Shown here one piece after another: positions 5,334 through 9,254 of a stretch of 43,821 nt of DNA (position 1 is its first letter; each line of letters begins with the position of its first letter). The translations under genes and the position numbers were made by a program. The DNA comes from Gammaproteobacteria bacterium (GTDB lineage Bacteria; Pseudomonadota; Gammaproteobacteria; GCA-002705445; GCA-002716945), in NCBI GenBank assembly GCA_002718845.1, contig PBFS01000002.1:40051-83871 (forward strand), in the 5' to 3' direction. The notes under the pieces are model-generated. The model ran no database searches and had not been told where the DNA came from. It saw only the letters and a program-made list of their open reading frames with translations.

Positions 5334-5729
5334 ATGAGAAAATTTGAAACTCTGTTAATAGAAAATAATATAACACCAACAAAGCAGCGACTTGATTTGG
5401 CAGAGATAATATTTGTAAGGAATCAACATTTTACAGCAGCTGATTTGATTAATACTGCTAACGAATCTAAGCTATTTATTTCACAAGCAACAATTTATAA
5501 CACTCTATGTATATTTGAAGAAAAGGGGTTGTTAAAAACAATAAATTTACAAAATGAATGTAAATTCTACGACACAAACCTTAACTCTCATCACCATGTT
5601 TATAATACTAGTACAAATACTTTAACAGATATAAGTAATGATCAAATTAAGTTTTCTAAAAAACCTGATATACCACAACATCTTGAACTAGAAACAACAG
5701 AAGTATTAATTAAAGTAAAAAATAAATAA
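5334..5729 (+). CDS. irr: Irr-type Fur-family regulator
   Basis: A 131-residue winged-helix regulator of the Fur superfamily. The N-terminal DNA-binding domain contains T-P-T-K-Q-R-L (14-20) and the recognition helix S-Q-A-T-I-Y-N-T-L (50-58). The dimerisation half has F-Y-D-T-N (78-82) and H86-H87-H88, but the C-x-x-C zinc motif that follows this histidine cluster in Fur, Zur and PerR is absent, replaced by V-Y-N-T-S-T-N. That pattern (S-H-H-H, then L-x-D-I and a K-x-P-x-x-P run) is characteristic of Irr, the heme/iron-status regulator known from Alphaproteobacteria. No N-terminal heme-regulatory motif is seen. The stop abuts the stop of the convergent DUF3501 gene. A TATACT -10 (5322-5327) six bases before the ATG and no Shine-Dalgarno suggest a leaderless mRNA. 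Confidence 0.8.
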   Translation: MRKFETLLIENNITPTKQRLDLAEIIFVRNQHFTAADLINTANESKLFISQATIYNTLCIFEEKGLLKTINLQNECKFYDTNLNSHHHVYNTSTNTLTDISNDQIKFSKKPDIPQHLELETTEVLIKVKNK

Positions 5730-6319: not shown

Positions 6320-7624
6320 CTAATTTATCCCGTAAGCGCGTTTAAATAAACTAATTGGATGTGTTGTCGGAATTTTATTACCGACAGCATTTACAATATG
6401 ATGTGCTGCTAACGTGCAATCACTGGTTAAAATTTCTGCTTTATCCTTATTAAATTCTCTTACTATTGGTTTTGCTATCTTTATTGCAATTTCATGAGTC
6501 TCTTTTTTAACACCATAAGTTCCATCATGCCCAGAACATTTTTCTATAGCATTAACATTGGTATTTGGTATAAGTTCTAAAACTTTTTTAGTTACTTGTC
6601 CAATATTTTGTACTCTCTGATGGCATGCAACTTGATAAAAAATAGAGCCGAGATCTTGTTTAAAATCAGTTTTAAGCTCACCAACTTCATGAAGGTTTAA
6701 TAAATATTCAAAAGGATCATAGATTGAGTCTGCAATTTTTTTAATTTTTATATCATTAGGAAATAATAGTGGCAGTTCTTGTTTAAACATCAATACGCAT
6801 GAAGGGACTGGCGCTATAATTTTAAATCCTTTTTCAATATAACGCATTAATTTGACAGAATTTTGTTGTATTACTTTTTCTACTGTCGCCAAATCTCCTA
6901 ATTCCAGCTTTGGCATACCACAACATTTATCATCTTTTATAATTTCAACGTTAATATTATTGTGTTGTAATACTAACACTAAATCATCAATCACTCTTGG
7001 CTCATTATAATTATGATAACAAGTTGTATATATTGCTATCTTATTCGCAAAATTGTCATTACTTGAAAGTTTTCTAAATTTGGATTTAGCTGTTACAGCA
7101 GAAAATTTTGGCAATACAGCATTTTTATGAATATGTAAAATTTTCTCTAATAATATTCTAAACGGTTTTAATTTATTAAAGAAATTAACTATGTGCGAAA
7201 TAATTTTTCTAGAAAAAATTGCGCCTAAAATATCCGTAGATGTTAATAGCTTATCTCTAAAAGATGGCTTTAATTTATTAAATTTTATTGCTTTGCCTCT
7301 TAGCATTAAGTGTGGAAAGTCAATTTCCCAATCATGAGGTGGAACATATGGGCATTTCGTCATAAAACATAAGTCACATAAATAACAATGACTAATGACA
7401 GACTCAAAATCATTATATTCTACACCATCAACCTCAAATGTTTTCGAGTTATCTATTAAGTCAAATAAGGTAGGGAAAGAATTACATAAACTAACACATC
7501 TTCTGCATCCATGGCATGCATTTGCAACCCTTCTTAATTCCTTTTCAAATAATTCCTCATTATAATAATCGGTATTTTTCCAATCGATGCCATATCTTTC
7601 AGGTTTTTGTAGACCACCTTCCAT
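6320..7624 (-). CDS. GlpC-like (Fe-S) oxidoreductase with two 4Fe-4S clusters and two CCG domains
   Basis: A 434-residue heterodisulfide-reductase/GlpC-type electron-transfer protein. The first ferredoxin-like motif is C37-x2-C40-x2-C43-x3-C47 and the second is C80-x2-C83-x2-C86-x4-C91-P, with one extra residue before the last cysteine. Two CCG-type domains follow: the first has D-K-C-C-G-M-P, and the second carries C-S-G-H-D-G in place of C-C-G. No flavin- or NAD-binding domain is visible, so electrons must come from a partner or the quinone pool. The ATG at 7624 has GGAG shortly upstream. It lies 65 bases after the rubrerythrin stop with no convincing terminator between, and 8 bases before DUF3501. 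Supplying electrons to rubrerythrin is an inference from context. Confidence 0.87.
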   Translation of the reverse strand: MEGGLQKPERYGIDWKNTDYYNEELFEKELRRVANACHGCRRCVSLCNSFPTLFDLIDNSKTFEVDGVEYNDFESVISHCYLCDLCFMTKCPYVPPHDWEIDFPHLMLRGKAIKFNKLKPSFRDKLLTSTDILGAIFSRKIISHIVNFFNKLKPFRILLEKILHIHKNAVLPKFSAVTAKSKFRKLSSNDNFANKIAIYTTCYHNYNEPRVIDDLVLVLQHNNINVEIIKDDKCCGMPKLELGDLATVEKVIQQNSVKLMRYIEKGFKIIAPVPSCVLMFKQELPLLFPNDIKIKKIADSIYDPFEYLLNLHEVGELKTDFKQDLGSIFYQVACHQRVQNIGQVTKKVLELIPNTNVNAIEKCSGHDGTYGVKKETHEIAIKIAKPIVREFNKDKAEILTSDCTLAAHHIVNAVGNKIPTTHPISLFKRAYGIN

Positions 7625-7689: not shown

Positions 7690-8109
7690 TTATGATAATG
7701 TCTCTAGAGCTTTAGAAAATCTATTTGCGTGAGATCTTTCAGCTTTTGCTAAAGTTTCAAACCAATCGGCTATTTCATCAAAACCTTCATCTCTAGCAAT
7801 TTTGGCCATACCGGGGTACATATCACTATACTCATGCGTTTCACCGGCTATCGCTGCTTTAAGATTTGCATTGCTGTCTCCAATTGGCTCACCAGTTGCA
7901 GGATCACCGCATTCTTTTTCAAGATATTCAAGATGTCCATGTGCATGTCCAGTTTCACCTTCAGCAGTTGATCGAAAAACTGCAGCAACATCATTTTGGC
8001 CTTCAACATCAGCCTTTGCTGCAAAATATAAATATCTTCTATTTGCTTGTGATTCACCAGCAAATGCATCTTTAAGACTTTGTTCAGTTTTGGAACCCTT
8101 TAAATTCAT
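7690..8109 (-). CDS. Rubrerythrin, diiron domain only
   Basis: A 139-residue ferritin-like diiron protein; rubrerythrins reduce hydrogen peroxide in the cytoplasm. All expected ligands are present with normal spacing: E19, E52-x-x-H55, E90, E93, and E124-x-x-H127. The C-terminal rubredoxin domain of classical rubrerythrin (two C-x-x-C pairs, about 45 residues) is missing, so it needs an external electron donor. The adjacent iron-sulfur protein is the obvious candidate, by inference. AGGAG sits just before the ATG. The gene reads less AT-rich than its neighbours, consistent with strong expression or a different history. Its promoter carries an Irr-type and an FNR-type site. Confidence 0.92.
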   Translation of the reverse strand: MNLKGSKTEQSLKDAFAGESQANRRYLYFAAKADVEGQNDVAAVFRSTAEGETGHAHGHLEYLEKECGDPATGEPIGDSNANLKAAIAGETHEYSDMYPGMAKIARDEGFDEIADWFETLAKAERSHANRFSKALETLS

Positions 8110-8133
8110 TTTATTCTCCTTTGTTTAAATAAC

Positions 8134-8148
8134 TTAGAATCATTCTAA
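8134..8148. promoter_or_regulatory. Irr/ICE-type operator over the rubrerythrin -10
   Basis: The sequence TTAGAATCATTCTAA is a perfect inverted repeat of seven bases on each side of one central base. It matches the TTAGAA-N3-TTCTAA layout I recall for the iron control element bound by alphaproteobacterial Irr. It covers the -10 hexamer of the rubrerythrin promoter (8147-8142), a position that would block RNA polymerase. An Irr-type regulator is encoded at 5334-5729, at the far end of the same gene group. Binding is inferred; the palindrome and its position are seen directly. Confidence 0.68.
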
Positions 8149-8170
8149 ATTTAATTATAACGGTTGTCAA
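8142..8170 (-). promoter_or_regulatory. Sigma70-type promoter of rubrerythrin
   Basis: On the minus strand a perfect TTGACA (8170-8165) is followed by exactly 17 bases and TAGAAT (8147-8142). Transcription would start near 8135, giving a leader of about 26 bases that contains the AGGAG ribosome binding site. It is one of the best consensus promoters in the window and probably drives rubrerythrin, the iron-sulfur protein and DUF3501. Confidence 0.75.
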
Positions 8171-8184
8171 TTGATCAATATCAA
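8171..8184. promoter_or_regulatory. FNR/ANR-type site upstream of rubrerythrin
   Basis: TTGATCAATATCAA matches the FNR/ANR consensus TTGAT-N4-ATCAA at all ten defined bases. It abuts the -35 hexamer of the rubrerythrin promoter, and its centre (8177.5) is 41.5-42.5 bases upstream of the predicted start. That is the classic class II activator position for FNR/CRP-family regulators. It could instead act on the divergent pyrD gene. No FNR-family gene lies in the window. Confidence 0.62.
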
Positions 8185-8216
8185 AAAAACACGGAAGTAT
8201 GATAAACTAATATTTT

Positions 8217-9254
8217 ATGGAAATTAAAAAAATTTTTTTTTCGATATATAAACAGTTAATTTTTCTTCTACCCCCAGAAACAGCTCATTCTGTTACTTTG
8301 TCTATGGCAGAAAAAATCTATAAATCATTTTTAAAAAATATAGTTTCTTCTAAAATGACGATTAATGAGAAAAAAGTTATGGGAATTACTTTCCCTAATA
8401 TGCTTGGACTTGCCGCAGGTTTTGATAAAAACGGTGACTATTTAAATTTTATAAATAATATAGGATTAGGCTTTGTTGAGGTAGGCACGATAACACCAAA
8501 ACCGCAATATGGAAATAACAAACCTAGAATATTTAGAGTTGCCAGCGAAGAAGCAATTATTAATCATCTTGGTTTTAATAATAAAGGAGTATCTTACTTA
8601 AAAGAAAAACTGAGACATTTTAATAGGAATATACCAATTGGTATAAATATTGGTAAAAATAGTAGTACTCCAATTGATAAAGCTTATGAAGACTATGAGT
8701 ACTGTATGCATGAAATTTTTGAATTTTCTGATTATCTTACGTTAAATATATCTTCACCTAATACTCTCAAGCTCAGAGAGCTTCATTCCAAAGATTATTT
8801 AGATAATTTTTTAAAAAAAATTAAAACTACTCATGAAAAATTATCAAAAAAATATAAAAAAAATGTTCCTTTATTACTAAAAATATCTCCAGATATTATT
8901 CAAGAAGACCTTAATAATATTTGTAATTCTATAAAACATTATGGCATTGATGGTGTCATAGCAACAAATACTACTACAGATAAATCAATTTTAAAAAATA
9001 AAAAACTTTTAAGCTATAGTGGCGGTGTTAGTGGGAGGCCATTATTAACAAAATCTAATAAAATTATTGAATTATTAAAAAAACTTGTGGGAAGCAATGT
9101 GGCTATTATTGGTTGTGGAGGTGTATCATCAAAAGAAGCGGCTTTAAATAAAATTGCATTAGGCTCTGATTTAATACAGTTATACACTGGTCTTGTTTAT
9201 TCAGGAACAAGTCTGATTCAAGAAATTACAGGTTTAAATAATAAATCTATTTAG
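8217..9254 (+). CDS. pyrD: Dihydroorotate dehydrogenase (quinone), class 2
   Basis: PyrD oxidises dihydroorotate to orotate in pyrimidine synthesis and passes electrons to quinone at the inner membrane. The 345-residue length fits class 2. The N-terminal amphipathic segment with L-L-P-P-E-T-A-H (17-24) is the membrane and quinone tunnel region. A-A-G-F-D-K-N-G (66-73) contacts FMN, N-I-S-S-P-N-T (177-183) supplies the catalytic serine S180 typical of class 2, and G-G-V-S-G-R-P-L is near the C-terminus. It starts at ATG 8217 without an obvious Shine-Dalgarno and diverges from rubrerythrin. Its last 8 bases overlap the convergent 93-residue gene. Confidence 0.97.
   Translation: MEIKKIFFSIYKQLIFLLPPETAHSVTLSMAEKIYKSFLKNIVSSKMTINEKKVMGITFPNMLGLAAGFDKNGDYLNFINNIGLGFVEVGTITPKPQYGNNKPRIFRVASEEAIINHLGFNNKGVSYLKEKLRHFNRNIPIGINIGKNSSTPIDKAYEDYEYCMHEIFEFSDYLTLNISSPNTLKLRELHSKDYLDNFLKKIKTTHEKLSKKYKKNVPLLLKISPDIIQEDLNNICNSIKHYGIDGVIATNTTTDKSILKNKKLLSYSGGVSGRPLLTKSNKIIELLKKLVGSNVAIIGCGGVSSKEAALNKIALGSDLIQLYTGLVYSGTSLIQEITGLNNKSI

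Follow-up and report, generated by a model that had tools for sequence, protein, structure and literature searches.

The window, by which we mean the whole analyzed stretch of 43,821 nucleotides, contains an aerobic-type rubrerythrin cluster, all members of which were recognized by profile matches: a rubredoxin-less rubrerythrin (rbr), the Fe-S oxidoreductase RFO and a DUF3501 protein, arranged in this order in one operon (Table 1). Clusters of this type were defined by Cardenas et al. 2016 (PMC5114695), who described the same three genes with a rubredoxin-less rubrerythrin and named no Irr, PerR or operator for them; the control element is the addition made here. Between rubrerythrin and the divergent pyrD gene lies a gap of 107 bp (8110-8216). 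At the other end, the irr gene (5334-5729) is convergent with the rubrerythrin operon, the stop codons abutting at 5729/5730. An Irr-type gene had been noted initially about 2.4 kb from the operator, at the end of the same gene group; the distance is correct, but irr, being convergent, stands outside the operon.

Table 1. Features of the rubrerythrin locus, with positions in the window
Feature	Position	Strand	Evidence or remark
Irr/PerRA-type FUR-family regulator, 131 aa	5334..5729	+	NF045677 5e-31, PF01475 3e-18
DUF3501 protein, 193 aa	5730..6311	-	PF12007 5e-68
RFO Fe-S oxidoreductase	6320..7624	-	NF008369 4e-67 (under equivalog cut-off), PF02754; RFO name from PMC5114695
Aerobic-type rubrerythrin of 139 aa, no rubredoxin domain	7690..8109	-	NF045767 5e-38, PF02915 8e-29
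Operator, perfect 7-1-7 palindrome TTAGAATCATTCTAA, ICE/PerR-box type	8134..8148		exact match
-10 hexamer TAGAAT, within left half-site of operator	8142..8147	-	17 bp from perfect TTGACA
-35 hexamer TTGACA	8165..8170	-	6/6 in 21/21 family rbr promoters
pyrD, quinone dihydroorotate dehydrogenase	8217..9254	+	TIGR01036 3e-113; divergent neighbor of rubrerythrin

The rubrerythrin promoter reads TTGACA-N17-TAGAAT, and its -10 region is covered by the palindrome at 8134-8148. Sequence and coordinates of this inverted repeat had been given exactly in the initial annotation, which also described it as lying over the -10 region of a near-consensus promoter. This was borne out, the promoter with its perfect -35 hexamer and 17-bp spacer being even better than noted. 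Both the 17-bp spacer and the location of the -10 region inside the operator recurred in 20 of the 21 rubrerythrin promoters of the window's family, the remaining one having a spacer of 16 bp. The palindrome matches the ICE consensus TTTAGAA-N3-TTCTAAA and is a predicted Irr-type site. The divergent neighbor pyrD is a possible second target.

Conservation of the operator and its association with irr

Seven perfect 7-1-7 palindromes occur in the AT-rich window versus 6.4 expected from base composition, which ruled out the palindrome as a statistical oddity in itself, and matches with up to three mismatches were at shuffle level. Within the 107-bp rubrerythrin/pyrD gap, however, only 0.016 perfect palindromes are expected. 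It is therefore the placement in this gap together with its conservation, and not the number of palindromes, that makes the site real. A lack of conservation upstream of rubrerythrin in related genomes had been named beforehand as evidence against the operator, but all 14 specified bases were unchanged in each of the 20 family promoters compared, although the flanks and the distance between promoter and start codon vary. Columns beyond the operator and the -35 region mostly fell to a conservation of 0.3-0.8. The right arm ATTCTAA, which is not part of the -10 region, was as invariant as the left one. Because the non-promoter arm is equally fixed, -10 conservation alone is insufficient, and it was discarded as the whole explanation. 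The equal fixation of both arms points to a dimeric protein, and, as judged from this comparison, the palindrome is a genuine, strongly conserved operator on the rubrerythrin -10 region. In its own genome (82.6% complete) it was the only exact site. Another 30 sites with one or two mismatches were nearly all intragenic and comprised no convincing promoter site; a wider regulon in this genome was rejected, only the rubrerythrin site being convincing.

The initial annotation had regarded Irr as mainly alphaproteobacterial, and according to a recent review it is, few exceptions aside, limited to Alphaproteobacteria (PMC7762939). This view did not hold for a set of 276 GTDB-Gammaproteobacteria genomes (Betaproteobacteria included), most of which were at least 90% complete. 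Irr-like genes were present in 116 of them and rubrerythrin in 125, both occurring together in 89 (p = 1e-19). One carrier of an Irr-like gene (L277) is the cultured non-pathogen Ectothiorhodospira mobilis. Counting rubrerythrin promoters as site-positive when at least 11 of 12 positions agreed (pattern TTAGAmTnAkTCTAA-like), we found the palindrome at 62 of 73 loci in Irr-positive genomes versus 7 of 37 in Irr-negative ones (p = 1e-11), genomes that are not independent of each other. Kinship is addressed, roughly, by the family-level test alone, in which families of uniform state were counted once and the palindrome was present in 35 of 39 Irr-positive versus 3 of 23 Irr-negative families (p = 1.5e-9). 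The exceptions are four Irr-positive families without a recognizable palindrome and three Irr-negative families possessing one. In GC-richer genomes the site turns into TTAGACTnAGTCTAA, both arms often being changed. The rubrerythrin promoter carried the sole exact site in seven genomes of the class, 1.7-3.9 Mb in size, and a control with the reversed pattern gave no match. On the basis of these counts, the palindrome is seen to track the Irr/PerR-type regulator across many Gammaproteobacteria.

Other genes carrying the site

Whether further sites fall at iron and heme genes had been posed initially as a check. Those detected reside at peroxide-defense genes, at ftsH and at one iscR; no heme-synthesis or iron-uptake gene was among the sites found in the family and in 52 class genomes. 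Within the window's own family, ftsH carried the site in 17 genomes of five genera. FtsH was identified by the family model in one genome and elsewhere assigned from its location after rlmE and a shared N-terminus; the ftsH promoters of genus g5 are devoid of a good -35 region. In five genomes of genus g6 the site belongs to a peroxiredoxin gene. One peroxiredoxin promoter (G014:C32:9449-9483, L102) exhibited two tandem sites 20 bp apart, and another double site was observed at rubrerythrin in G192 (L244). In G002 (L117, G002:C4:41000-47000) katG takes the place of the rubrerythrin operon beside irr and bears the same operator on its -10 region. The iscR site was found in G019, where the palindrome has no recognizable -35 region. 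Two sites were shared by contigs C9 and C25 of genome G000, reflecting assembly redundancy, and its contig C20 contains a response regulator of foreign appearance, possibly a contamination.

The class-wide scan for exact sites at genes other than rubrerythrin comprised 52 genomes, nearly all Irr-positive, and included four sites without an assigned gene. Sites belonged to a di-heme cytochrome c peroxidase in G141 and G284 and to an AhpC-type peroxiredoxin in G299. Exact sites were also seen at gpmI, encoding the cofactor-independent phosphoglycerate mutase, in members of two different families (G141, L228; G196, L242), possibly through a link to manganese. In the rubrerythrin-less genome G103 (L238, G103:C7), an exact site precedes pyrD by a few bases and is either a relic of the rubrerythrin-pyrD gap or a true control element of pyrD. 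Taken together, the target set is of the peroxide-defense type (rbr, katG, prx, ccp and ahpC), with ftsH, gpmI, pyrD and iscR in addition.

The regulator and its relatives

Irr models were the closest to the window regulator, which scored below both cut-offs (NF045677, 107 bits versus 170; NF045678, 106 versus 150). In the FUR tree, the gamma proteins, alpha Irr and Leptospira PerRA formed one group apart from PerR, Fur and Mur with a support of 96/90, the inner order of the tree not being fixed and the Leptospira branch being long. The tree does not decide whether the gamma branch is related to alpha Irr by transfer or by vertical descent. The closest solved structure was that of Leptospira PerR (5nl9), at 9e-16 in the sequence comparison and 8e-10 in the fold comparison; the structure model of the regulator had a pLDDT of 93, and the fold match to 5nl9 showed 27% identity.

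Residues H32, D80, H86, H88 and D99 of the regulator correspond to the PerR ligands H37, D85, H91, H93 and D104 (numbering according to PMC4700492). All five are conserved across the gamma set, the last acidic ligand being Asp, not Glu; the Fur protein of the same genome has Glu at both acidic positions. An HxH motif is formed by H86 and H88, which every one of the 31 gamma-set sequences compared possessed; the residue between them varied in two. Because the same residues are PerR ligands, HxH is not diagnostic of Irr. Nor can the ligand set alone separate peroxide from heme sensing, since heme-sensing Irr possesses the same five ligands in full (PMC4700492). N56, the Asn in the DNA helix of PerR and Irr, is conserved as well. 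The window regulator contains no CxxC and hence no structural Zn(Cys)4 site, and it also lacks the N-terminal heme regulatory motif (GCPxH) of Bradyrhizobium-type Irr. This motif occurred in 3 of 19 alpha sequences and is not universal in Irr; in Bradyrhizobium Irr it makes H2O2, which is then activated by the His cluster (PMC4700492).

Three known systems lend themselves to comparison. Bacillus subtilis PerR, whose targets are of the peroxide-defense type, resembles the window regulator in these targets and in the five regulatory ligands, but possesses the Zn(Cys)4 site and falls outside the Irr/PerRA clade. With Irr of Alphaproteobacteria (Bradyrhizobium, Rhizobium, Rhodobacter), the window regulator shares the clade, an ICE-type operator, five metal ligands, the recognition-helix Asn and the lack of CxxC; moreover, the targets in R. 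sphaeroides include the rubrerythrin-like mbfA and the peroxidase gene ccpA (PMC3413700). It differs from alpha Irr in having no heme regulatory motif and in scoring below the NCBIfam equivalog cut-offs, and its family mostly possesses a separate Fur and has sites without any iron-uptake or heme gene among them. Leptospira PerRA (5nl9), as noted the closest solved structure, likewise has no structural zinc site, and its autoregulatory site is similar to Irr boxes (PMC8638967); the identity in the fold match is only 27%, however, and phylum and gene setting are different.

Probable peroxide signal and rival explanations

Of the 25 family genomes, 19 contained a separate canonical Fur, the other six being incomplete assemblies. 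An OxyR-like protein was found in none of the 25, the same query being positive in 179 of the 276 class genomes. Among the matches listed, an OxyR-type gene lies directly beside rubrerythrin at at least 11 loci without palindrome and Irr (G039:C53, G061:C2, G070:C547, G079:C35, G158:C20, G199:C13, G249:C4, G251:C127, G256:C1, G280:C23 and G287:C198); again among the matches listed, the 69 scored loci that bear the palindrome have no such neighbor (p = 7e-6). This is apparently an exchange of regulators. An exchange at one operon of two unrelated regulators, of which one is known to sense peroxide, argues for a peroxide signal.

We infer direct binding, the sign of regulation and the signal from this evidence as follows. 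The product of the convergent gene, a FUR-family repressor belonging to the Irr/PerRA clade, would bind the palindrome as a homodimer, cover the -10 and start regions and block RNA polymerase, by which rubrerythrin, RFO and DUF3501 would be kept low. Fe(II) held by the five ligands would react with H2O2, leading to oxidation of ligand histidines as in PerR; the oxidized repressor would release the DNA, turning on the peroxide-reducing rubrerythrin operon. That this Irr without heme regulatory motif is such a PerR-like repressor, relieved by peroxide and acting at the rubrerythrin -10 region, appears to us fairly likely. The initial annotation had proposed an Irr-type operator with an Irr-clade regulator beside it, which stands, and repression of rubrerythrin through the covered -10 region, which the position of the site supports. 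Its further proposal that rubrerythrin and the downstream genes are repressed when iron is short found no support. Because the sites lie at peroxide-defense genes and the regulator has a full PerR-type iron site and no heme motif, the peroxide signal is better supported, and the operator probably serves as a switch responding to hydrogen peroxide and not to iron shortage. Against this reading it may be held that ftsH, gpmI, iscR and pyrD are not classical peroxide genes.

A true Irr would behave differently: apo-Irr would repress at heme or iron shortage and heme would relieve repression, so that rubrerythrin, an iron protein, is made when iron is plentiful. Membership in the alpha Irr clade, an operator equal to the ICE consensus and the retained HxH heme site agree with this mechanism, and peroxide enzymes are compatible with Irr, as the Irr boxes of R. 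sphaeroides at mbfA and ccpA demonstrate (PMC3413700). We nevertheless consider it unlikely, given that heme and iron-uptake genes were missing among the sites found, most family genomes have a separate Fur, the heme regulatory motif is absent, and OxyR takes the regulator's place at loci without Irr. That canonical Fur, the genome's other FUR-family protein, binds the palindrome is highly improbable. Fur is indeed present, and in many relatives a site resembling a Fur box lies some 67 bp away from the palindrome, but across the class the palindrome tracks the Irr-like gene, and in these relatives it coexists with the Fur-box-like site as a distinct element. Of the 20 family rubrerythrin promoters, 17 have the latter, a 19-mer (14-16/19), at a fixed distance of 64-67 bp on the upstream side of the palindrome (L047-L065); the window genome (11/19, p = 0.94) and two g6 relatives lack it. 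Its position would be activator-like for rubrerythrin, or it may belong to the pyrD leader, and in the relatives iron control of rubrerythrin via Fur, additional to the Irr-like operator, is plausible. Least probable of all is an extended promoter merely conserved as such and bound by no repressor: the -10 region does lie within the left arm, yet the right arm beyond it is as invariant, the site is usually absent where the regulator is absent, and the iscR palindrome has no recognizable -35 region.

The gamma Irr branch could be a dedicated peroxide sensor that replaces OxyR on the aerobic rubrerythrin operon in dozens of families and that, in the OxyR-less streamlined marine family of the window, has extended its reach to katG, peroxiredoxin and ftsH, a generalization for which we see about equal grounds for belief and doubt. 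If it is true, Irr and PerR would appear to be alternative uses to which a single ancestral iron/peroxide sensor has been put. In the open-access literature searched, no prior report linking a gamma Irr to peroxide was found. Among Gammaproteobacteria, a regulator of the Irr clade is widespread whose operator is predictable and which is tied to peroxide defense. It is a candidate regulator for the aerobic rubrerythrin cluster, for which none was named in the defining paper (PMC5114695), and may account for the regulation of peroxide defense in OxyR-less marine bacteria. It also offers a testable link between heme-sensing Irr and peroxide-sensing PerR.
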